DNA from: a virus
Direction: 5' to 3' (one strand)
Length of the DNA stretch: 41,472 bases
IMG/VR virus record: IMGVR_UViG_3300046010_008991
Location: 1-41,472 of that record
Within the stretch, counting starts at the first letter, position 1, and each line of letters begins with the position of its first letter. This document shows, piece after piece, positions 1,153 to 39,824 of the stretch. The translations under genes were made by a program, and so were the position numbers. Under the pieces are notes generated by a model. It was given only the letters and a program-made list of their open reading frames with translations. It did not search any database and was not told the DNA's origin.

Positions 1153-1956
1153 ATGAAAAAGTTTGGAAGGTTTAATGATGTGATCAGATGGACAGCTGAG
1201 CAGATGTACGATTACTCATATGTTGTTCACACAGAGAAGTGGCAAGGAAAGGAAATCAAACATGATCCTAGATATGCTATGATCGAAACATTAAATCTTT
1301 CTTTTTCGTGTCAAATGGATCCGGACATTAAAGTTATCGGAGACCAAATTAAGCCCAATTTTGAATGGGCAGACGAGCACTTTGAGGAAAGAGTTAGCGG
1401 ATATCCTCTTAATCCGCCTCCATCTCATGTTCGCTGGCCATATGCTCAGAAGAATAATTCAGAATTCGGTGGAGATGAAAAATTCTCCCACACATACCCT
1501 GAAAGGATCTGGGGAAAATATGGAGAGACTGAATCTCCAACCCGCACTACTGGATGTACATTAAAAGGAATCAGATACAATTATGGCGATTTTGCCGATG
1601 TTGTTAATCTTATGGTTAGAGAACCTTTTACTAGACAGGCATTTTTACCTATTTGGTATCCAGAGGACACCGGATCAGTTCACGGAGAAAGAGTACCTTG
1701 TACTATTGGATATCATTTTATCAGAAGAGGTAATTGGGTACATGTTGTTTACTATATAAGATCCTGCGATTTTTTCAGACATTTTAGAGACGACATTTAT
1801 CTTTGTGCTAGAAAGGTATTTTGGCTTATTGAGCAGTGCAATAAAAAAGATCCTGAAAACTGGGAGGATGTTAAACCGGGTATGCTTACTATGCACATTA
1901 CTTCTTTACATGCTTGGGCATCTGAAAAGCCTATGCTTAAGAATTTGATTCGATGA
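1153..1956 (+). CDS. Thymidylate synthase / dCMP hydroxymethylase family protein
   Basis: A 267-residue member of the ThyA fold, which transfers a one-carbon unit from methylenetetrahydrofolate to C5 of a pyrimidine nucleotide. The nucleophile is seen in VPCTIGYHF (Cys183), followed by the phosphate-binding RSCD (203-206) and a late MHITSLHAW segment matching the THLYSNH region of E. coli ThyA. Counting from RSCD, the residue equivalent to E. coli Asn177, which reads the uracil ring, is Asp214. In T4 dCMP hydroxymethylase the corresponding residue is also Asp, so this enzyme may act on dCMP rather than dUMP. The N-terminal half diverges from bacterial ThyA. A dCMP deaminase is encoded at 27043. 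Family assignment is firm; substrate is an inference. Confidence 0.82.
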   Translation: MKKFGRFNDVIRWTAEQMYDYSYVVHTEKWQGKEIKHDPRYAMIETLNLSFSCQMDPDIKVIGDQIKPNFEWADEHFEERVSGYPLNPPPSHVRWPYAQKNNSEFGGDEKFSHTYPERIWGKYGETESPTRTTGCTLKGIRYNYGDFADVVNLMVREPFTRQAFLPIWYPEDTGSVHGERVPCTIGYHFIRRGNWVHVVYYIRSCDFFRHFRDDIYLCARKVFWLIEQCNKKDPENWEDVKPGMLTMHITSLHAWASEKPMLKNLIR

Positions 1957-1962
1957 TATATA
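1955..1962 (+). promoter_or_regulatory. GATATATA motif before the transglycosylase gene
   Basis: This octamer recurs just before eight genes of the window. Here only 4 bases separate it from the ATG at 1967, so as a -10-like element it would give a leaderless transcript or one starting inside the annotated reading frame. Confidence 0.4.
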
Positions 1963-1966
1963 CTAG

Positions 1967-2809
1967 ATGTTGGTACATCTAAAAGACTTTAAAAGTTTCT
2001 CTTTATTCGAAAATATAAGGATCGAAAAAATGGATCCCTCATCTTACAAGAGAGAAACTGTTACAGAATTACCCTATATGGATATTATAGGAGAAAATCG
2101 TAACAATTTTCTTAAAAAGCTAATTAAAATATCTGAGAGTCTTAATATAGATCCTAAGTGGCTTTTACACACTATATTTCACGAAAGTAGATTCGATACA
2201 AAATACCAAGACAGCATGTCAAAAGCTGTAGGACTTTTAGGCTTTATGCCATCAGTCCTTAAGAATTTTGTAAATCCAGAAACAGGAAAAAGCTATACTC
2301 CGAATGATGTCTTACAGATGTCTAATATAGATCAATTAGATTTAGTTAACGCTTTTTATAAAGCATGGTTTTCTGAAATGAATCTAAAGGGTGAGATTTC
2401 TCCCGGCGATTTCGCATCTTTAACATTTTATCCAGAGACTATAAGAAAAGATTGGAAGTGGGAATTTCCTGCTTATGTTGTAGATAAAAATATCGAGACT
2501 TTTAAAAAATTCCCTTCCGGTGGGGGAAAAACGAAGAAGGATTATTATGAATATATCGATCAGATCTTCAATAGCGGCGAAGAACAGGACGATAACAATA
2601 ATTACATATTAGGTAATTTCACCGGAGCATTTGCAGATCCTAAATCCTATAGAGCTAAAAAGCCATTGGAATATTACAGAGGTATACTCGATGCAATAGA
2701 GGATCCATATTTAAATCAAGAAATACAGATGCAAGATATGGAGAACACCGAGAAGAATAAACAGGTTAACGCTAACACCGTTCCTTTAGGAGTAAATGCA
2801 GTAAAATGA
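1967..2809 (+). CDS. Lytic transglycosylase (SLT-like) with a capsid-targeting-like N-terminus
   Basis: A 280-residue protein with a soluble-lytic-transglycosylase core: FHESRFD supplies the catalytic glutamate (Glu73), followed by a QDSMSKAVGLLGFMPS segment typical of the GLxQxmP signature. It should cleave peptidoglycan. The first residues, MLVHLKDFKSFSLFEN, have no secretion signal; they resemble T4 capsid-targeting peptides and contain a prohead-protease-like site (LFE before Asn16). The next gene starts with almost the same octet. The C-terminus is polar and probably disordered. Its stop overlaps the following ATG (ATGA), suggesting coupled translation. Alternative roles are endolysin or tail-associated lysozyme. 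An internal ATG at 2030 would remove the signal. Confidence 0.72.
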   Translation: MLVHLKDFKSFSLFENIRIEKMDPSSYKRETVTELPYMDIIGENRNNFLKKLIKISESLNIDPKWLLHTIFHESRFDTKYQDSMSKAVGLLGFMPSVLKNFVNPETGKSYTPNDVLQMSNIDQLDLVNAFYKAWFSEMNLKGEISPGDFASLTFYPETIRKDWKWEFPAYVVDKNIETFKKFPSGGGKTKKDYYEYIDQIFNSGEEQDDNNNYILGNFTGAFADPKSYRAKKPLEYYRGILDAIEDPYLNQEIQMQDMENTEKNKQVNANTVPLGVNAVK

Positions 2810-3087
2810 TGTTAAAAAGAATAAAAGACTTCGGAATAAAAGAATCACTAGAATACAGTGGGGAGGACGTAACTAGAATGCCTGTTATAGGAAAAGTTAT
2901 TACTCATGCAATTGGACCATTTGACGAGGGAGAATATGAAGTGGTTGAAATAATAGAAGATCCTGAAGGGAAAGACATCTATGTATGTAATAAGTGGTAT
3001 AAAGAATATAAAAGAATACCTCAAATAATTCACCAAAATTTGGTTAAAGAATATATTCCCGTTGAAAAATTTGGGAACTTTTATTAA
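2806..3087 (+). CDS. Small protein with a capsid-targeting-like N-terminus
   Basis: A 93-residue protein of unrecognised family. Two adjacent ATGs (2806, 2809) are possible starts; the first overlaps the upstream stop. Read from the second, it begins MLKRIKDFGIKESLEYS, matching the neighbour's MLVHLKDF in six of eight positions if I/L are treated as equal, and offering cleavage sites of the T4 gp21 type (IKE before Ser, or SLE before Tyr). The remaining 75 residues look like a small beta-rich domain, with a strand-like run around GEYEVVEIIEDPEGKDIYV. If the leader is a packaging signal, this would be an internal capsid protein delivered with the DNA. Function otherwise unknown. Confidence 0.6.
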   Translation: MMLKRIKDFGIKESLEYSGEDVTRMPVIGKVITHAIGPFDEGEYEVVEIIEDPEGKDIYVCNKWYKEYKRIPQIIHQNLVKEYIPVEKFGNFY

Positions 3088-3107
3088 TAAGGTTATATAA
3101 TAATAGA

Positions 3108-3174
3108 ACTAGAGGTTTCTAGTCACTTCCGGGTCAACAAACCGTAGAGCTTTCAGAAATGGACGCGAAGGAAG
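3108..3174 (+). ncRNA. Candidate structured RNA or cis-regulatory leader with pseudoknot
   Basis: The 108-base gap before the 3196 gene is locally richer in G and C than its surroundings and folds neatly by eye. ACTAG (3108-3112) pairs with CTAGT (3119-3123). The GGTTT in that hairpin loop (3114-3118) can pair with AAACC (3139-3143), making a pseudoknot. CTTCC (3126-3130) pairs with GGAAG (3170-3174) and encloses the region. The GGACG...GGAAG block before the start codon loosely recalls the glutamine-binding glnA/Downstream-peptide RNAs of marine cyanobacteria and phages, but the conserved CGTTCA half is not visible, so no class is assigned. It most likely acts in cis on the gene starting 21 bases downstream. 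Confidence 0.5.
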
Positions 3175-3195
3175 GGGCCAAATAAAATAATCTTT

Positions 3196-4044
3196 ATGTA
3201 TTATTCAACGCCAAGCGTGACGTCGCAGTGTACTGCTAACATCACAAGAAACAGAAACAGAGCCAAAATTTATGGCGATTCCGTCTATCTAAAAGACGGA
3301 GAGAATTTCGAGATTGAGCTATTCAATCCAACCACAGCAAGGGTACTTGCAAAAATCACAATCAACGGTAAGGCAATTTCAGATTCGGGGATTGTATTAA
3401 AACCAGGAGAAAGAGTTTATCTTGAGAGATTTATTGATTCTAACAATAAATTTGTCTTTGAAACCTACGAGGTTGAAAAATCTAACGAGGCTTTAAATGC
3501 TATTGTAGATAATGGATTAATCAAGGTTGAGTTTTTTAACGAGATCACATTAAATTCGGGTTTTACCCTACAAGGATCAACAGGTTTTGGATCAACAATA
3601 TCTACACTCGGTAATAATTATCAGTATACTACACAAGGTCCTATTGGTATTGTTGGAGCTAGTGGTACAATAGGATTAAATAGTATAACTAACGATTCTT
3701 ATTTCAATAATTCAACACTTACTGCATCTTTTGGAGGAACAACAACGAATAATCTTTTCGTTACCACATCGATGATAAATGAATCTATCAAGGGATCTAA
3801 CGCAAGTAATTCCCAAGGTATTGAAACAGGAAGGATTGAAAAGGGGGAATCTAGTAATCAATCGTTCTCAACTACTAACGGAAATTTTAGTTACTTTCCA
3901 GCAACAACAATTTCTTATAGACTACTGCCAACATCACAAAAACCAATAGAGACCTCCGAAATTAGGAACTATTGCACTGGATGTGGCTCTAGAATAAAGA
4001 AAGCGGGATGGAAATTCTGTCCTTCTTGTGGTGAAAAAATCTAA
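3196..4044 (+). CDS. Virion-like protein with C-terminal zinc ribbon
   Basis: A 282-residue protein in three parts. Residues 1 to about 100 form a compact domain (RAKIYGDSVYLKDGENFEI, then ELFNPTTARVLAKI) with the character of a beta-sandwich; I recall similar domains in virion-associated proteins of T4-like marine phages. The middle is rich in Gly, Ser, Thr and Asn and looks flexible. The end carries CTGCGSRIKK followed by KFCPSCGEKI, a complete two-CxxC zinc ribbon. No catalytic motif is seen. It follows a possible structured RNA leader and ends at a strong bidirectional terminator. A structural or DNA/RNA-contacting role is possible. The zinc ribbon on a virion-like protein is unusual. Confidence 0.6.
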   Translation: MYYSTPSVTSQCTANITRNRNRAKIYGDSVYLKDGENFEIELFNPTTARVLAKITINGKAISDSGIVLKPGERVYLERFIDSNNKFVFETYEVEKSNEALNAIVDNGLIKVEFFNEITLNSGFTLQGSTGFGSTISTLGNNYQYTTQGPIGIVGASGTIGLNSITNDSYFNNSTLTASFGGTTTNNLFVTTSMINESIKGSNASNSQGIETGRIEKGESSNQSFSTTNGNFSYFPATTISYRLLPTSQKPIETSEIRNYCTGCGSRIKKAGWKFCPSCGEKI

Positions 4045-4059
4045 ATCCTACTACACAAA

Positions 4060-4092
4060 AAACCCAGGAGAGATCCTGGGTTTGTAGTTTTT
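4060..4092. terminator. Bidirectional rho-independent terminator
   Basis: AAACCCAGGA (4060-4069) and TCCTGGGTTT (4074-4083) form a perfect 10-bp stem with a GAGA loop. It lies between two convergent genes and has T-rich tracts on both sides (TTTTT at 4088-4092 on +, A-run 4057-4062 read as T on -), so it can stop transcription in both directions. Confidence 0.85.
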
Positions 4093-4891
4093 ATAGATAT
4101 CTTTCCCAGTCTTGTGCTGTTTCAGCCTGAGCTATTTCTGTATCTGTATAAGGTCTAATATTACTTAGAGGAGTTCCTTGGTAAGCCATATAAGCATCTT
4201 TAGGAACTGGAATTTGGTATTGGGGAGAAACGTTTGCAGTTCCTGTATTTCCAGTAGTTGCTGGTGTAGTTGCTATTACAGGTTTGTTCTGTGGCCCAAA
4301 CATCCAATCATACGATTTTTTTGCAAATTTAACCTCTTGGGTGATTCCTCTTAAAGATTTTATCTTAGCAGGATCTGCAGCCATTTTAGTTAATTTAGCA
4401 CCATTCTTAAAAACAAAGTTCTTAAGTGAAGTAATAATCTTACCAACAAAAGGACCTATGCCAGCGAATTTAGATAAAAATTTAGAGCTTTTTAGAAATC
4501 CTACAATTTTTGGGAAAAACTTAGCCACAGCATTTACTAATGGCTTTAAAATACTAGATCCTAGTGCTTTACCTTTCCCTAGAGCTTTTACCAATAAACT
4601 ACCTCCTGCTCCGATATACTGCCCAAATATAGGAATTAATCCTATTGCACAAAGACCTGCTAATAAATATTCACCTTGCTTAGCATAAGAGACAAGGTTT
4701 ATACCCTCTGCAACCGATCCTACACCTGGTATAAGAGCAGCAAAATCTAAAACTGTATTATACCATGCTTCCATTAAAGCTGGATCTTCTGAAGAAAGAT
4801 ATCTTAGTGATTCGTCTATTTGGTCTTGAGTAAAAAACATAGGTGAGCTACTTTCGAATAAGTAGTCTTCCATAGAAAGGATATTATCCAT
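4091..4891 (-). CDS. Polymorphic-toxin-like membrane-domain protein with capsid-targeting-like leader
   Basis: A 266-residue protein on the - strand, against the direction of nearly every other gene. Residues about 45-100 contain the pattern LDFAALIPGVGSVAEGIN, YAKQGEYLLAGL, then IPIFGQYIGAGG, which matches the hydrophobic Gly/Pro-rich region found ahead of toxin tips in polymorphic toxins. More hydrophobic and basic helices follow (about 100-190), then a Thr/Pro linker. There is no recognisable nuclease or enzymatic tip. The N-terminus MDNILSMEDYLFESSS fits a T4-type capsid-targeting peptide with a cleavage site after LFE. A GATATATA motif lies 13 bases before the ATG. I infer a membrane-interacting protein packaged in the head and delivered with the DNA; a transmembrane early protein is the alternative. 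Confidence 0.6.
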   Translation of the reverse strand: MDNILSMEDYLFESSSPMFFTQDQIDESLRYLSSEDPALMEAWYNTVLDFAALIPGVGSVAEGINLVSYAKQGEYLLAGLCAIGLIPIFGQYIGAGGSLLVKALGKGKALGSSILKPLVNAVAKFFPKIVGFLKSSKFLSKFAGIGPFVGKIITSLKNFVFKNGAKLTKMAADPAKIKSLRGITQEVKFAKKSYDWMFGPQNKPVIATTPATTGNTGTANVSPQYQIPVPKDAYMAYQGTPLSNIRPYTDTEIAQAETAQDWERYL

Positions 4892-4904: not shown

Positions 4905-4912
4905 TATATATC
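4905..4912 (-). promoter_or_regulatory. GATATATA motif on the minus strand
   Basis: The + strand reads TATATATC, so the octamer points toward the - strand gene starting at 4891, 13 bases away. This is the only copy noticed on the - strand, and it serves one of the only two - strand genes. The 65-base divergent gap 4892-4956 presumably also holds the start signals of the SET-domain gene. Confidence 0.5.
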
Positions 4913-4956: not shown

Positions 4957-5301
4957 ATGCTTTACAGATCTAGTAAGATTTATGTAGAAGATTCTACAGT
5001 ACATGGGAGAGGGGTATTTGCTTCTGATTCTATAAAGAAAGGAGAAATACTAGAAGAATGCCATTTTTTATTGGTACCGAAAGATGATCCTTATCCGCAG
5101 GTGCTCTATGAATATTTTTTTAGCTGGCCTAAAGGCGGAGACGAATTAGCTGTTTGTTTAGGATATGGAAGTATTTTTAACCATTCAGAAATTTATTTTA
5201 ACGCAGATTGGGAAACAGATACCACTAAGAAGAAGATTATTTTTTTCGCAGTAAGAGATATAAATTCGGGAGAGGAAATATTTACAAATTATCAAAGATA
5301 A
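4957..5301 (+). CDS. SET-domain protein (putative lysine methyltransferase)
   Basis: A 114-residue protein that is essentially a bare SET domain. HGRGVFASDSIKKGEIL near residue 17 is the N-terminal SET motif. GYGSIFNHSE (about 69-78) is the NH(S) cofactor-binding motif, followed by NADW. FFAVRDINSGEEIFTNY at the end is the C-terminal motif with the catalytic tyrosine. Such proteins methylate lysine using S-adenosylmethionine. The protein target is unknown; in a phage it could be a host ribosomal or nucleoid protein, or a virion protein. It is divergent from the toxin-like gene and begins the leftward end of a run of small + strand genes. There is no pre-SET or post-SET cysteine cluster. Confidence 0.85.
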   Translation: MLYRSSKIYVEDSTVHGRGVFASDSIKKGEILEECHFLLVPKDDPYPQVLYEYFFSWPKGGDELAVCLGYGSIFNHSEIYFNADWETDTTKKKIIFFAVRDINSGEEIFTNYQR

Positions 5302-22245: not shown

Positions 22246-22818
22246 ATGGCAGGATTACCACATTATACGAGTTCTAAGGCTTCGGTTAACAAATTCGAAC
22301 CGATTTTCCTCAACCAGTTTGAGGTTACCATTACTCCGCCAACGGCTATTCCAGTACAAGCTGGAAACCCTGGCGCAGCTAATATATTATTGGAACAAGT
22401 TACTAGAGTATCAGGTCTTCAAGTAGATCAAAATGCTGGAGAGATCACACAGCAATACAAATTTGCTAAAAGATACTACTCTGGTGCTGCTCCTCAAAGA
22501 ACTGGTTTAGATGTTGACATAGAATTTGAAATTAACCTTAACGAGAATAATTCGATGTATGTTTTTAAAACATTACGTCAATGGTCTGATTTAATTTACA
22601 ATCCTCTTACTGGGGCAATGGGACTTAAGAAAGACTATACAGGTAATATACTCGTTAACGTTTTCAACAAACAAGGAGATATCTTTAGAAAAATAAACCT
22701 AAGAGATTGTTTCCCAATGACTCCAATACCAGAAATGGCATTAAACTACACACAAACTTCAATCTACAAATTGAATTTAACTTGGGCAGTTGACTATTTC
22801 GACGACGTATTTATATAA
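22246..22818 (+). CDS. 19: gp19-like tail tube protein, copy 1
   Basis: A 190-residue tail tube subunit that makes the inner conduit for DNA. It starts MAGLPHYTSSKASVNKFEPI and shows the tube-fold features FLNQFEVTITPP, a loop with EQVTRVSGLQVDQ, the conserved LRQWSDLIYNPLTG and a final TWAVDYFDDVFI strand. T4 gp19 is 163 residues. It is 12 bases from a second copy about half identical by eye. The leader carries AATATATA and an A-rich start region. Confidence 0.93.
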   Translation: MAGLPHYTSSKASVNKFEPIFLNQFEVTITPPTAIPVQAGNPGAANILLEQVTRVSGLQVDQNAGEITQQYKFAKRYYSGAAPQRTGLDVDIEFEINLNENNSMYVFKTLRQWSDLIYNPLTGAMGLKKDYTGNILVNVFNKQGDIFRKINLRDCFPMTPIPEMALNYTQTSIYKLNLTWAVDYFDDVFI

Positions 22819-22829
22819 AAAAATAAAAA

Positions 22830-23408
22830 ATGGCAGGATTACCACATTTTACAGCATCAAAAGCAGCAGTACAATTATACGAACCGGTATATCTTAACCA
22901 GTTTGAGGTTATAATACAGCCTCCAGTTGGTGTTGCTTTAGAACAAGGGAACGGAGGAAGAACTCTTTTAGTAGAAAACGTGCTTTCAGTTTCTGGATTA
23001 GCAGTTGATAAAAACCCAGGTATAGCGGAGCAAAGATATAAATTCGCTAGAAGAAGATACGCTGCAGGTGCAGTTGATGATACTGGTGTTAAGGTTAGGA
23101 TTGAATTTGAAACAAACCTTAACGACAACAATAGCAACTATGTATTTAAGGCATTAAGACAGTGGTCAGATTTAATATACAACCCTCTAACAGGAGCAAC
23201 TGGTATTAAATCAACTTACGCAGGAGGAACTTATATACTAATTTCTATATTCAATAAACAAGGAGACGTTTTCAGAAGAATTAAATTAGTAAACTGCTTC
23301 CCCGTAGATCAGATTAAATCACTGGATTTGGATTATACTAACGGTACAACACCTTATAAGATCCCACTATCTTTTAGAGCGGATTATTTCGAAGACGTTT
23401 TTAATTAA
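22830..23408 (+). CDS. 19: gp19-like tail tube protein, copy 2
   Basis: A 192-residue paralogue of the preceding tube protein, beginning MAGLPHFTASKAAVQLYEPV and keeping every hallmark: YLNQFEVIIQPP, LRQWSDLIYNPLTGATG, FNKQGDVFRRI and RADYFEDVFN. Differences cluster in the loop after the first strands and before the last strand. Both copies look intact. One may form the shaft and the other a tip or terminal ring, or the tube may be mixed. A clear terminator follows. Confidence 0.92.
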   Translation: MAGLPHFTASKAAVQLYEPVYLNQFEVIIQPPVGVALEQGNGGRTLLVENVLSVSGLAVDKNPGIAEQRYKFARRRYAAGAVDDTGVKVRIEFETNLNDNNSNYVFKALRQWSDLIYNPLTGATGIKSTYAGGTYILISIFNKQGDVFRRIKLVNCFPVDQIKSLDLDYTNGTTPYKIPLSFRADYFEDVFN

Positions 23409-28613: not shown

Positions 28614-29355
28614 TATACAAATAAATCGACAAGCATTCCCTTGGGGAAGAGCTTATGTGGTAGAAGGAGCTGGTGAAGCTCCTTTAATTTTACCCTCAGT
28701 CACTACTATATTAAAATTAGTAAAGAACGAGAAGTACGAAAAATTAAAGGAGCAATTTGGAGAGGATCGATGGAATAAAATACTCTATGATGCAGCAGAA
28801 AGGGGAACAGTAATGCACAGAATGTTAGAACTGTTTCTTCTTGAGTGGGCTAAGGAAAAAGACGTAGATAGATCCTTAAAAAAAGCACAAATATTTGCTA
28901 TAGAAGAATCTAGAAGAGACGACGGAAAGTATGCTAAATACGTAAACAAAGGAAGAGATCTATTCTGGAATTTTTACCATACTAATTTTTGGGAAAGTAT
29001 AGAGGAAGTTGTAGACAACGAAGCTTTCTTATATACAACTTTCAAGGGAGGTTGGGCAGGAGCTTGTGATTTTGTTTATAGGGATAAGGCATACAACTTG
29101 ATAGTTGATGATTTTAAATCTTCAACATCTCTAAAAGATGAGGAAGACATATTAAGCTATAAATTACAAATCTCAGCATATATGTTTATGTGTGCTGAAA
29201 AATACGGTGAAGTCCCTAAGCAAGGAAGAATTAGGATAGCAAATGAACAAACATCAGATATACAAACATTTATTGTTCACGATTACGAACTGAAAGAATA
29301 TCTTGGTCAGTTTATAGAACTTGCTAAAAAATTCAGAGAAATTTACGGAATATAG
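28600..29355 (+). CDS. PD-(D/E)XK nuclease (RecB/Cas4-like fold)
   Basis: A protein of about 251 residues. The ATG at 28600 is preferred to an adjacent TTG. The conserved core is GTVMHRMLE (helix with metal-neighbouring His), AGACDFVYRD (first acidic residue), IVDDFKSS (D-x-K catalytic pair) and YKLQISAYMFMC (QxxxY helix). This is the layout of RecB- or Cas4-type exonucleases. It may process DNA ends or degrade host DNA; unlike Cas4 there is no iron-sulphur cysteine set. The gene overlaps the membrane protein upstream and precedes two small helical genes. Confidence 0.8.
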   Translation: MLSSDIQINRQAFPWGRAYVVEGAGEAPLILPSVTTILKLVKNEKYEKLKEQFGEDRWNKILYDAAERGTVMHRMLELFLLEWAKEKDVDRSLKKAQIFAIEESRRDDGKYAKYVNKGRDLFWNFYHTNFWESIEEVVDNEAFLYTTFKGGWAGACDFVYRDKAYNLIVDDFKSSTSLKDEEDILSYKLQISAYMFMCAEKYGEVPKQGRIRIANEQTSDIQTFIVHDYELKEYLGQFIELAKKFREIYGI

Positions 29356-29394
29356 GAAACTTAATTGATTCTATCTGTATAAAAAATAAAAAAA

Positions 29395-29619
29395 ATGAGT
29401 TCGCTAGGAATTAATTATAAAAAAGCTTTAATAAAAAAATACGAATTTCAGATGGAAGAAGCGAAAGCAAATCTTTCCCTTTATTTTTCTAGCACCAACT
29501 TAGCTGCTATAGGTGAACATTCGGATCTTTTAGCTGAGCATGACAGATGGGTAGAACAATATGCTAATGCTAAAGATAAGCTTGAAGCATTATTGGACTT
29601 ATACGAAAACGAAAACTAA
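29395..29619 (+). CDS. Small coiled-coil hypothetical protein
   Basis: A 74-residue protein starting MSSLGINYKKALIKKYEFQM after a leader with two A-runs, typical for this genome. It is predicted as two helices (EEAKANLSLYFSS; HDRWVEQYANAKDKLEALLD) that could form a hairpin. No recognised motif. It lies 16 bases before another helical gene and may be its partner. Confidence 0.5.
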   Translation: MSSLGINYKKALIKKYEFQMEEAKANLSLYFSSTNLAAIGEHSDLLAEHDRWVEQYANAKDKLEALLDLYENEN

Positions 29620-29635
29620 ATAAAAACAAATAAAA

Positions 29636-30133
29636 ATGGCAAACAAAAAACCAAAAGAATTAAACGAAGATCAAAACGAAGCGGTTCTTGAAAAATTTAT
29701 CAGCAACGTAGATCAAGAAAAAGTTGAGAGCATAAGAAAAGATCTAGAAGGTTACAAAAATAGTCTTAAAGACAAAGAATACGCCGTTTCTATGGATAAA
29801 GATCTATTAAGAAGATTTGAGCAATTCATGAGAGAAGATGTTGAATGGAGATCTAAAGAGGCATTAGGAGTAATGGAGATCTTAAAAAGAATCGACTCAA
29901 TAAAAAAAGAAGGCATTAAAGACGGAGTAGCTTATCTAACAAATCTAGAAGTTGAAGCTTCGCACTACTTCCTAATGAAATGGGCAGGAAAAGGGGAGTC
30001 GGAAATTAGTAATTTCATCTCACTTTGGAAAACATTCGAAGAAACCCTTACTCTTATTCAACAGGACAATATTGTTTTGAAAGATCTAGAGAAACAACTT
30101 GCAGCAGCAGAACAGGGAATTGAATTAGAATAA
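29636..30133 (+). CDS. Helical hypothetical protein
   Basis: A 165-residue, charged, almost fully helical protein. The central helix DKDLLRRFEQFMREDVEWRS and the segment SHYFLMKWAGKGESEISNFI stand out, followed by a long terminal coiled coil (DNIVLKDLEKQLAAAEQGIE). No known family; no signal or membrane segment. It is the last gene before a strong terminator, so the 26805-30133 unit ends here. Confidence 0.5.
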   Translation: MANKKPKELNEDQNEAVLEKFISNVDQEKVESIRKDLEGYKNSLKDKEYAVSMDKDLLRRFEQFMREDVEWRSKEALGVMEILKRIDSIKKEGIKDGVAYLTNLEVEASHYFLMKWAGKGESEISNFISLWKTFEETLTLIQQDNIVLKDLEKQLAAAEQGIELE

Positions 30134-35953: not shown

Positions 35954-36546
35954 TAGATCCATTTAAAAAAAGATTTGAAGAATATAAACTTTCTATATCC
36001 GGACTTTCCTCACCACAGGAAGAATCTTTCATGTTTTGGTTTAATAAATTCGTAAATAAAAACTCCCAATTCAATCCTCTAGATTTTTTATCAGGGAAAG
36101 TTTATTCGTTTGAATACAACGATAAACTAGAAGGAGGTAAGAAATTTATAAATAAAAGACCTGTCGTGTTTTTTACAGGATACGACAACTATGAGAGAAA
36201 AAATATATTTAGCGGATTAGATCTAATACTAATACCACCTATTTTCAGAATGTATTTTTTTGAAAGAGTACAAAGCGTTTTCCAAGATCAGATTGAAAGA
36301 AATATAAGAAAAGATGAAAATGGGGAGGGAAGAGATCAATCTCCTTTAAAAACTGATTATCAAATAATGGAGTCCATATTAAAAGGAATCCCATATAAGC
36401 ACTCATATAGATCTTGGGATTTAAAAAAAGTTAGGGGCGTTGTGGAAATTCCTTTTGAAGATTGGACTAGAATAGTATATCTTGATACTAGGTCAATTGA
36501 AGGGACCCAGCTTATTGAGATATATAATAAAAATTCACAAGTCTAA
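35950..36546 (+). CDS. Conserved phage protein between gp4 and portal
   Basis: A 198-residue protein joined to gp4 by an ATGA overlap and to the portal by TAATG. It contains GKVYSFEYNDKLEGGKKF, then PVVFFTGYDN and SGLDLILIPPIFRMYFFERV, a pattern I recall from unnamed proteins of T4-like phages, where it reads G(x)YxFxYxxK...GLNLxYLPP. The late region (WDLKKVRGVVEIPFEDW) looks like a strand-loop-strand. Likely a virion or assembly factor, but no role can be given. Confidence 0.55.
   Translation: MIDPFKKRFEEYKLSISGLSSPQEESFMFWFNKFVNKNSQFNPLDFLSGKVYSFEYNDKLEGGKKFINKRPVVFFTGYDNYERKNIFSGLDLILIPPIFRMYFFERVQSVFQDQIERNIRKDENGEGRDQSPLKTDYQIMESILKGIPYKHSYRSWDLKKVRGVVEIPFEDWTRIVYLDTRSIEGTQLIEIYNKNSQV
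36519..36526 (+). promoter_or_regulatory. GATATATA motif before the first portal gene
   Basis: It lies inside the last codons of the upstream gene, 19 bases before the portal ATG at 36546. The location inside a coding region makes a chance match possible, but the distance is typical of the other copies. Confidence 0.45.
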
Positions 36547-38165
36547 TGGCTGGATTGACCGACGAAAAAAAATCTTTTTTTAGCTCTATTATAGAGAACA
36601 TAAAGAAAGTGGGCAGTTTTGGAATGGCATACGAAGATCTTGTCGTGAAAAACTCCCAGGCAGTTGGTATTACTGAAGCACAATTTCTACAAAAAGGAGG
36701 CATAAAAGACGAAGCTTTCTTATTTGGATTAAGGAGAGCAGATACAACAACCAAGCAATACATAGCTTATTTTGATAAGGACTATAAAAACAAAAGACAT
36801 TATCTTCAAGGATTTGCACAAAATCCCGAAATAGAGTTTATCTTAGATACTATATGTGACGAAACAATAGTTTACGACGAAAAGAATTTCTGGGCTTATT
36901 TCTCATTCATGCAACACGATGATGTAGATGAGGCGGCATATGAGAAAGTACAGAAAAGATACAAAGAGGTCTATAACCTGTTCGGATTTAATCAGGATAT
37001 ATCAGCATGGCATTTATTCAGAAAATTCCTAGTTGATGGTAATATAGCTTTTGAAATTGTATTTGATAAGAAGGGTAAAAATATAGTAGGATTTAAGGAA
37101 TTAGATCCTTGGTCTTTAATTCCAACGGTAGAAGCACAACCAGATGGGTCATTTGCAGATATCTGGATACAGTATCCGGATAATCCTGCACTTACTAGAA
37201 AGCTTTACGATTCTCAGATTATCTATATAAGTTACGCTAAAGGAGGCGGTACTGCAGCTAGAGTTAGCTATTGCGAAAGAATGATAAGATCATTTAACCT
37301 TCTTAGGATTATGGAGCACACTCGTATTATATGGAACGTTATGAACTCCTCATACAGGATGGCAATGACAGTTCCAATAGGTACTAGATCCCCGCAAAAA
37401 GCAAAACAAACGCTGGGTGAACTTATGTCAATATACAAAGAAGATATAAGATTAGATACAGATAGTGGAGAATTAAGTGTAGACGGAAGACCTAAGATAC
37501 AATTCTTTAAAAACTATCTAATGCCATCATCCCCTAATGGTACACCAGATATACAACCTTTACCTGGTGGTGGTGATGCTACAGCATTCTCCGACACAAC
37601 AGTACTTAAGTATTTTGCTAATAAACTTAGAATGGACTCTAAGATACCTGCTACCAGATTCGGAAGAGAAGAATCCGGATCTGAGGGTACAATTACATTT
37701 ACTGCGGAGGGTCTAGACCAAGAGGAAATAAGATTTGCTAAATTTATAAACAGATTAAGATCAATATACCAGGAGATATTAATGAAGCCTCTTTGGGTTC
37801 AGTTCTGTTTAGATTTTCCACACCTTAAAAAAGATTATATTATTAAATCTGAATTTGGTCTCGATTATGTTAAGGAAAATATATTTAGAGAGGCTAAAGA
37901 GATGGAGGTAATGACTGCGAGAAAGGATCAGGTGATTAAAATATCTGCTCTTATGAATTCGGCAGGCAAAAAATACTTCAGTATGGATTTCTTAGTTGAT
38001 AGATTCCTAGGCATGAAAGGACAGGATCTAGTAGCTAATAAGAAAGCAAAAGAAAAAGCTGCAGAAGAGAAGAAGAAAGCAGAAGAGGCTGCTGGAGCTA
38101 CAGGAGAAGCAGGAGCTACAGGGGAAGAAGGCGGAGCAGCTGGTGGAGACATGGGAGAAATTTAA
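36546..38165 (+). CDS. 20: gp20-like portal protein, copy 1
   Basis: A 539-residue portal subunit; twelve make the ring through which DNA enters and leaves the head. The wing and stem region EILDTICDETIVYDEKNFW-type sequence (from residue about 97) and LVDGNIAFEIVFDKKGKN match gp20, as do RMIRSFNLLRIMEHTRIIWN and the helix PQKAKQTLGELMSIYKEDIR, then LYKED-type clip residues. T4 gp20 is 524 residues. The C-terminus ends with an alanine/lysine helix then GATGEAGATGEEGG, a collagen-like tail. A paralogue follows 6 bases later. Both are intact. Confidence 0.92.
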   Translation: MAGLTDEKKSFFSSIIENIKKVGSFGMAYEDLVVKNSQAVGITEAQFLQKGGIKDEAFLFGLRRADTTTKQYIAYFDKDYKNKRHYLQGFAQNPEIEFILDTICDETIVYDEKNFWAYFSFMQHDDVDEAAYEKVQKRYKEVYNLFGFNQDISAWHLFRKFLVDGNIAFEIVFDKKGKNIVGFKELDPWSLIPTVEAQPDGSFADIWIQYPDNPALTRKLYDSQIIYISYAKGGGTAARVSYCERMIRSFNLLRIMEHTRIIWNVMNSSYRMAMTVPIGTRSPQKAKQTLGELMSIYKEDIRLDTDSGELSVDGRPKIQFFKNYLMPSSPNGTPDIQPLPGGGDATAFSDTTVLKYFANKLRMDSKIPATRFGREESGSEGTITFTAEGLDQEEIRFAKFINRLRSIYQEILMKPLWVQFCLDFPHLKKDYIIKSEFGLDYVKENIFREAKEMEVMTARKDQVIKISALMNSAGKKYFSMDFLVDRFLGMKGQDLVANKKAKEKAAEEKKKAEEAAGATGEAGATGEEGGAAGGDMGEI

Positions 38166-38171
38166 TAGATA

Positions 38172-39824
38172 ATGGCAGGATTTTTAGATAACTTAGGAAA
38201 AATTAACCCAAATATCTCCAGGATATTAAAGACCATTAGTGGTCTAGGGTCATTTGGTATGGAATACAAAGATATGGTCATAGAAGATTCCATGGCTATA
38301 GGTGTTTCAGAAGCTAACATGAGAGAAAGATTCGGATTTACTGAATCTGATGAAGATTTTATCTATAGCATAGCCGCTCAGGATACTTCCAATAGAAAGT
38401 ACATAGCTTATTTTGATAAGGATTACCCGTTTAAAAGAGATTTTCTTAGAACATTTGCTTTAAACTCCGAGATAGAGTATATTTTAGATACTATATGCGA
38501 CGAGGCAGTAGTTTATGACGAGAAGAATTTCTTTTGTCATCCAGCTCTAATGAGCATGGATCTAAAGGACGATGTTGTAAAGTCAATGAGATCCAATTTT
38601 AGAAAATTATATGTTCTACACAACTTTGCAAACGGTCTTACTGCTTGGCAATATTTTAGACAATTAATTGTCGAAGGATTTTTAGCTTTCGAGATAATAT
38701 ACTCGAACGACGGTAAAGAGATCGTTGGATTCAAAGAACTTGATGCGGTAAGTTTAACTCCCGCAGTAGAGAGAAAGCCAGACGGTACAAGAGAAACTAT
38801 ATGGTGGCAATATTACGGAGAAACAACCAGACAAAGAAAACTTTTAGATGCACAGGTTATTTATATCTCTTACGCTAAAGCTAATGTTGTTTCAAGGGTT
38901 TCTTATACAGAAAGATTAATAAGATCATACAACTTATTAAAGATAATGGAGCATTCGAGAATAATATGGAATGTCATGAATGCCCAATATAGAATAAAAA
39001 TGACAGTTCCTATCGGAAGTAAAGCTCCACAAAAAGCCAAAGAGACTTTAGGAGAGCTAATGTCAGTATATAAGGAGGATATAAAATTAGATACCACATC
39101 AGGTGAGCTTTCTATAAACGGTAGACCCGATATACAATTTTATAAGAATTATCTTTTTCCTCAACAAGGAGGAGAATCAGTAAAGATAGAAACATTAAAT
39201 GCTCAAGGTCCTAACCTTAATATAATGGATTCTGTTGTTTATTTCTATAATAAACTAAGACAGGATTCAAAGATACCTTACAATAGATTCTCATCTCGAT
39301 TTGGTGTTGGATCTAATAACGTTTTTAAAACTGCTGCTGATGGAGCAGAAAGAGACGAAGTTAGATTTGCTAAGTTTATAACACGACTTAGATCTATATT
39401 CCAGGAAATAATAGTTAAGCCACTATGGATTCAGATGTGTCTAGAATTTCCCGAACTTAAAAATGACGCTGAATTTAGAAGCCAAATAGGAGTTAAATTC
39501 GAAAGTGATAATATGTTCGGTGAATCTAGAGAGATCGAACAGTTAATAAAGAAAATAGATTTCATAACAGCAATGGGAGAAATAAAAGAAACTGTAAAGG
39601 AGGAAGAGGTTCAATATTTCGATCAGGACTTTATGATAGAAAGATGGCTGGATTTAAATTATGAAGATATTCAGCTTAACAAATCCTATATTAGAAAAGC
39701 CGAGGAGGAAGGTAAATCCGGAGCAACAGGAGCAACAGGAGCAACAGGAGCAGAGGCCGGAGGAGCTGAAGCTGGAGCAGCAACAGGAGCTGAAGGCGAA
39801 GGAGCAACAGGAGCGGCAGTTTAG
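38172..39824 (+). CDS. 20: gp20-like portal protein, copy 2
   Basis: A 550-residue paralogue of copy 1 with the same landmarks: SGLGSFGMEYKDMVIEDS, YIAYFDKDYPFKRDFLRTFA, IVEGFLAFEIIYSNDGKEIV, RLIRSYNLLKIMEHSRIIWN, and PQKAKETLGELMSVYKEDIK. Differences lie in the N-terminus, in the clip-side loop about residues 320-370 (FPQQGGESVKIETLN) and in the C-terminal helix. It ends in four GATG triplets and then Ala/Gly/Glu. Nothing suggests a pseudogene. It may alternate with copy 1 in one ring or serve a second particle type; unknown. Confidence 0.9.
   Translation: MAGFLDNLGKINPNISRILKTISGLGSFGMEYKDMVIEDSMAIGVSEANMRERFGFTESDEDFIYSIAAQDTSNRKYIAYFDKDYPFKRDFLRTFALNSEIEYILDTICDEAVVYDEKNFFCHPALMSMDLKDDVVKSMRSNFRKLYVLHNFANGLTAWQYFRQLIVEGFLAFEIIYSNDGKEIVGFKELDAVSLTPAVERKPDGTRETIWWQYYGETTRQRKLLDAQVIYISYAKANVVSRVSYTERLIRSYNLLKIMEHSRIIWNVMNAQYRIKMTVPIGSKAPQKAKETLGELMSVYKEDIKLDTTSGELSINGRPDIQFYKNYLFPQQGGESVKIETLNAQGPNLNIMDSVVYFYNKLRQDSKIPYNRFSSRFGVGSNNVFKTAADGAERDEVRFAKFITRLRSIFQEIIVKPLWIQMCLEFPELKNDAEFRSQIGVKFESDNMFGESREIEQLIKKIDFITAMGEIKETVKEEEVQYFDQDFMIERWLDLNYEDIQLNKSYIRKAEEEGKSGATGATGATGAEAGGAEAGAATGAEGEGATGAAV

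Follow-up and report, generated by a model that had tools for sequence, protein, structure and literature searches.

Candidate capsid-targeting leaders on a transglycosylase and other proteins of a large T4-related phage and its relatives

Introduction

Three nearby genes in a fragment of viral DNA begin with short N-terminal stretches resembling the capsid-targeting leaders of phage T4, and they raise the question of whether their products, a peptidoglycan-cutting enzyme among them, are carried in the phage head and delivered together with the DNA. In T4 itself, a handful of proteins are known to bear such a leader. The gp21 cleavage site at its end reads L/I-X-E, and the 10-residue leader of IPIII suffices for packaging (PMC9026906).

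The window analysed here is the whole IMG/VR record IMGVR_UViG_3300046010_008991, a fragment of 41,472 bases. Genes read in its proteins include UvsX, gp41, gp46/47, gp17, gp18, two gp19, two portals, a sigma factor and DNA ligase, and the source is a large, uncultivated, T4-related phage. The two tail-tube-like genes lie side by side (22246-23408), as do the two portal-like genes (36546-39824). The terminase is 32% identical to that of the cultured phage PAU and 33% to that of Tenacibaculum phage PTm1. Genes for gp21 and gp23 are not in the window, which stops short of their locus, and the link to them therefore runs through relatives. As relatives, 80 loci were fetched whose terminases are 63-100% identical in the best segment; four large ones were used as full records (G001, 244,850 bases; G002, 219,355; G003, 174,942; G005, 153,314).

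Results

The first gene (1967-2809, plus strand) encodes a protein of 280 residues assigned as an SLT-type lytic transglycosylase. The protein matches PHROG families at E 1.1e-8, with baseplate hub as well as transglycosylase families among the nearest matches. As a single sequence it matches Pfam SLT at E 0.0022, under the cut-off; the family profile matches the solved lytic transglycosylase 9udh at E 4.2e-7. With the catalytic glutamate, residue 73, invariant in the homolog alignment, the earlier note's reading of the gene as one for a peptidoglycan-cutting enzyme is supported. The protein starts with the putative leader MLVHLKDFKSFSLFE (1967-2011, plus strand), for which a cut after residue 15 is predicted. 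Across 17 aligned homologs, E15 (P1) is invariant, P3 is L or M and P2 is free, as the L/I-X-E rule of gp21 predicts (PMC9026906). The leader ends found in 18 homologs are LFE↓N, LFE↓S, LFE↓G, LLE↓S, LNE↓S, LTE↓S, LSE↓S and MNE↓S (the arrow marks the predicted cut), and leader length shifts by one or two residues among them. IGE↓N at residues 41-43 was considered as a cut site and dropped, the P1 residue being Asp in several homologs.

Gene 2 (2806-3087, plus strand) encodes 93 residues, in which a leader precedes a predicted small beta-barrel domain; the AlphaFold model places strands at residues 29-85 and has low confidence for residues 1-17. A database search for relatives of the protein found none, and fold searches with the model returned only weak Tudor/SH3-like or unnamed matches, none of them at E <0.001. 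The leader MMLKRIKDFGIKE (2806-2844, plus strand) has its predicted cut after residue 13, or 12 when counted from the second Met. The start one codon ahead of that Met is possible; it reads MMLKRIKDFGIKE↓S and overlaps the SLT stop as ATGA. Homologs keep (I/V/L)KE↓N/S at this first site, with LNE↓N in L102 and a shortened LVE↓N in L093. Of the two cuts proposed earlier, after residue 12 or 15 from the second Met, the former is thus the conserved one; the LxE candidate at 15 was dropped, its Glu being replaced by Ser in several homologs.

The third gene (4091-4891, minus strand) encodes a membrane-domain protein of 266 residues. Its putative insertion in a membrane is suggested by two hydrophobic stretches (about residues 46-64 and 76-94). 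In an alignment of 22 sequences, a highly conserved core starts at residue 41. No match was found in PHROGs, NCBIfam or the phage collection, the only three Pfam matches were all far below cut-offs, and the fold model was too poor for a fold search (pLDDT 48.8). The leader, MDNILSMEDYLFE↓S (4853-4891, minus strand), has a predicted cut after residue 13. Most homologs carry (L/I)xE there with P2 free, as LFE, LLE, LNE, ISE, ITE or LIE before S/N/G/D/Q/T; the divergent homologs L112, L114 and L118 depart from the motif. The basic residues of a typical leader are missing from MDNILSMEDYLFE, and the strict pattern used below does not capture this protein.

The three N-termini quoted in the earlier note are correct, and comparative evidence argues for its reading of them as T4-type leaders of 13-15 residues with a gp21-type (L/I)xE↓S/N site, P3 and P1 being kept while P2 and length drift. 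The genes are nearby, as was said, but they are not contiguous: a zinc-ribbon gene (3196-4044, plus strand; the ribbon is C-terminal) lies between gene 2 and the membrane-protein gene. It has neither a leader nor the late element described below (0/23 homologs) and is taken to be a bystander. Adjoining the membrane-protein gene on its other side is a gene for a small protein that consists of a SET domain (4957-5301, plus strand; Pfam E 6.3e-15).

Between gene 2 and the zinc-ribbon gene, and outside the leader system, lies a conserved structured RNA (3090-3178, plus strand). The stretch around it has 82% mean column identity in 14 relatives, the flanking gene-2 and zinc-ribbon proteins being mostly 52-83% identical to those of the window. 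A four-helix structure, drawn from the same sequences on which it was scored, has 93.6% of cells paired, compared with 35-55% when slid, and five pairs have two-sided changes, the helices covarying in distant relatives. With a covariance model, the window copy reaches 106.6 bits, and G005, G003 and G002 each have a single clear match, which precedes the homolog of the zinc-ribbon gene; in T4, PAU, PTm1 and MaF61 it finds nothing up to E 1, and an Rfam search of the element gave no match. The simplest guess is that it would act in cis on the zinc-ribbon mRNA.

A search for enriched words upstream of leader genes returned GATATAT. Of the octamer GATATATA, one copy (1955-1962, plus strand) stands 12 nt ahead of the SLT start codon, and all 18 SLT homologs have it at -12 or -15; another (4905-4912, minus strand), belonging to the membrane-protein gene on that strand, stands 21 nt ahead of the start codon and is found in 21/23 homologs. 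Gene 2 homologs have none (0/14). Since gene 2 overlaps the SLT gene, it would ride on the SLT transcript. Each of the four genomes has 33-46 copies, and 22-31 genes per genome have a copy no more than 45 nt from the start codon. In 4/4 relatives the octamer precedes the genes for gp18 (sheath) and gp20a (portal) and those for proteins of 771 and 406 aa, and gp21 genes of relatives share it; a check of replication and metabolism genes in the four relatives found it at none of them. Its frequency is 30/71 upstream of leader genes, 78/809 upstream of others and 0.4% in random 45-mers. The association with leaders (Fisher 1.7e-11) also holds for strict leaders outside the head locus (2.4e-10). 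The element is likely the late promoter of this clade, judged from where it occurs; the T4 late element TATAAATA has no clear enrichment in the window. In one class of GATATATA copies the distance to the start codon is just 12-15 nt, and the mRNA would then be leaderless or nearly so.

In the relatives, the 13-residue leader class mostly reads M K x I/L x x F x x F L/I/V N/S E, with S/G/N after the cut. A strict pattern, shaped on these same genomes so that the resulting excess figures are descriptive, finds 14 leader genes in G005, 14 in G003, 12 in G001 and 15 in G002, against chance levels of 1.6-2.5 (shuffled N-termini) and 1.5-3.7 (internal windows). Support independent of the pattern's shaping comes from the association with GATATATA and from PAU and the two phages without a gp21 match, given below. 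In the window, only the SLT gene and gene 2 match (ATG ORFs of at least 60 aa), the membrane protein with its leader free of basic residues failing to do so. As a control, T4 has 8 matches against 2.3 expected, its three internal proteins among the 8. P-SSM2 has 6 against 1.5 and KVP40 6 against 2.5, a few of the matches in each being T4-like when read. PAU, which has gp21, has 12 strict matches, or about 17 when related forms are counted, with a consensus of its own. PTm1 has little excess despite its gp21 (6 against 2.4), so the presence of gp21 does not imply a large leader set. MaF61 (0 against 1.4) and phi14:2 (2 against 0.8) have no excess, and no match to gp21 (PF03420) was found in either. 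A loose (L/I)xE scan gives many background matches. A position matrix trained by expectation maximization was dropped: its motif was biased by homology and did not recover the internal proteins of T4.

The same kind of leader is found in relatives both genome-wide and next to gp21 and gp23, the two places where the earlier note would have looked for it. Among eight large relatives, gp21 (PF03420) is present in six and gp23 (PF07068) in seven, and the two are adjacent wherever both were found. Genes neighbouring them, scaffold-like and core genes included, start with MYNKRLEYNPLFE↓S, MKYFSNKFSSLLE↓N, MKKYSDFILDDSLNE↓G and the like. HSLNE↓S occurs in 6/7 gp23 frames; alignment could not place it against the gp23 cut of T4. 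The gp21 frames of G005 (L137, 17307-19391), G003 and G001 are 681-695 aa long, and in them the protease domain runs into a C-terminal region of tandem YSEYLAE(N/K)LD-like repeats (YSEYLAE↓NLD), each with an LxE; they are perhaps protease-scaffold fusions. In PAU, seven leader genes surround the genes for portal, protease and scaffold. The depositors annotated two PAU leader proteins, gp142 and gp154, as internal capsid protein, giving no basis for it. Another PAU protein (L206, 14544-15098) starts MKTLTLSDFLKE↓N and matches the GmrSD N-terminal domain (Pfam E 1.1e-13). The GmrSD restriction enzyme is the target inhibited by the injected IPI of T4.

Most leader proteins have no Pfam family match; those that do extend the range of candidate cargo. 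G001 and G002 have three more leader genes beyond a thymidylate-synthase-like gene, a few genes away from the one for the membrane protein. Their products are a DUF2201 metallopeptidase/vWA-type protein, a MoxR-like AAA ATPase and an uncharacterised protein of 271-273 residues (domains from the G001 copies). CHAP hydrolases with leaders occur in G002 and in G003 (frame 29236-30009), and a PAP2 protein with a leader in G002. All SLT and CHAP domains found in G001, G002, G003 and G005 (by Pfam; the G003 SLT homolog by BLAST) are on leader proteins; searches of the relatives for a gp5 of the T4 type or a phage lysozyme domain found neither. In more distant relatives the SLT/gene 2 pair is absent from the neighbourhood, where other leader genes (MoxR/vWA) are located. 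The suggestion of a self-contained kit is not supported by these results: leader genes are spread over the genome and the cassette is but one of their sites, a leaderless gene stands inside it, and the SLT/gene 2 pair is missing here in distant relatives.

Discussion

Based on the collective evidence, the leaders are probably capsid-targeting leaders of the T4 kind, from which gp21 would release proteins that exit together with the DNA when the phage infects. The evidence in the sequence is strong; docking, packaging and cleavage, like ejection and what the proteins do at entry, are inferred from it. In this scheme, separate GATATATA promoters would drive late transcription of the operon of SLT and gene 2 and of the gene for the membrane protein. 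The leader, typically M-K-x-I-x-x-F-x-x-F-(L/I/V)-x-E, would dock the protein on the prohead core, where the prohead protease gp21 would cut after (L/I)xE and free the mature protein inside the head. Once the proteins have left the head along with the DNA, the SLT protein would act on peptidoglycan during entry, much as T7 gp16 does, the membrane protein may aid crossing of the inner membrane, and the gene 2 product would be a small folded cargo.

Alternatively, the tagged proteins could enter the prohead core and be cut by gp21, yet serve head assembly or stay behind as core remnants rather than act as injected effectors. Scaffold-like and core genes adjoining gp21 bear the same leaders, and the MoxR-vWA pair has been proposed for virion assembly (PMC7824862). 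A transglycosylase or a CHAP hydrolase, however, is without evident use in assembling a head, and both bear leaders in the relatives; we consider this explanation unlikely. More improbable still is that the SLT protein is a tail, baseplate or lysis enzyme whose N-terminus is merely leader-like. Baseplate hub families are among its nearest PHROG matches, other enzymes of the gp5 or lysozyme type that could fill the role were not found, and a late promoter taken alone would fit equally well. Against it stand the leader conserved with a free P2 in 17-18 SLT homologs, the similar leader of the operon partner gene 2 and the leaders of the CHAP enzymes in relatives.

That the leader resemblance is due to chance would be easiest to argue from the (L/I)xE core, which is short and common and matches much background in the loose scan, and from the roughly two strict matches per genome that are expected anyway. 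We regard it as very improbable, given the excess over shuffles and internal windows, the conservation in homologs, the association with GATATATA, the PAU annotation and the lack of excess in the two phages without detected gp21.

The preferred reading, T4-kind leaders released by gp21, has analogies in known systems. In common with T4 IPI-IPIII and Alt there is a short N-terminal leader ending in L/I-X-E, with similar leaders heading unrelated mature proteins, and the phages concerned also encode gp23 and a protease of the gp21 family; hydrophobic or aromatic residues have an i, i+3 spacing, like that of IPIII positions 4 and 7. Unlike T4 with its handful, each genome of the relatives has 12-15 strict leader genes, with another consensus, and the predicted cargo adds SLT and CHAP hydrolases and the MoxR/vWA-metallopeptidase pair. 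In T7, the SLT-type peptidoglycan-cutting enzyme gp16 probably exits the head when the DNA does (PMC8954989). T7 gp16, however, belongs to a short-tailed phage, has 1318 aa, forms part of the stack of the internal core and bears no targeting leader that could be removed; the likeness is one of function only, by analogy. In phiKZ and SPN3US many head proteins are likewise cut after glutamate by a gp21 relative (PMC5694885, PMC9026906), but from propeptides that are mostly much longer and with S/A-X-E or A-X-E motifs. The MoxR-vWA pair of group 2.2 jumbo phages has the same domains, the vWA being fused to an N-terminal metallopeptidase (PMC7824862). Both partners bear a capsid-targeting-like leader here, of which the available part of that paper makes no mention. 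A literature search on capsid targeting in Bacteroidetes phages found nothing in the papers it covered.

The principle itself is known, a review of T4 head assembly having already stated that capsid-targeting sequences may give T4-like phages a means of loading a variety of proteins (PMC9026906); new here are therefore the bigger set, the new cargo and the lineage-specific tags. More broadly, and with slightly less than even confidence, the leader may be a general head-loading tag of lineage-specific spelling that places a dozen or more different proteins in each virion, including wall hydrolases and an AAA+/metallopeptidase pair, and the T4-related head would then be a broad protein-delivery particle. 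The predicted cut is exact to the residue. If the tag holds, host entry would involve head-borne wall hydrolases, and genes of unknown function in this clade and in PAU could be sorted as head-carried from their first 15 residues.
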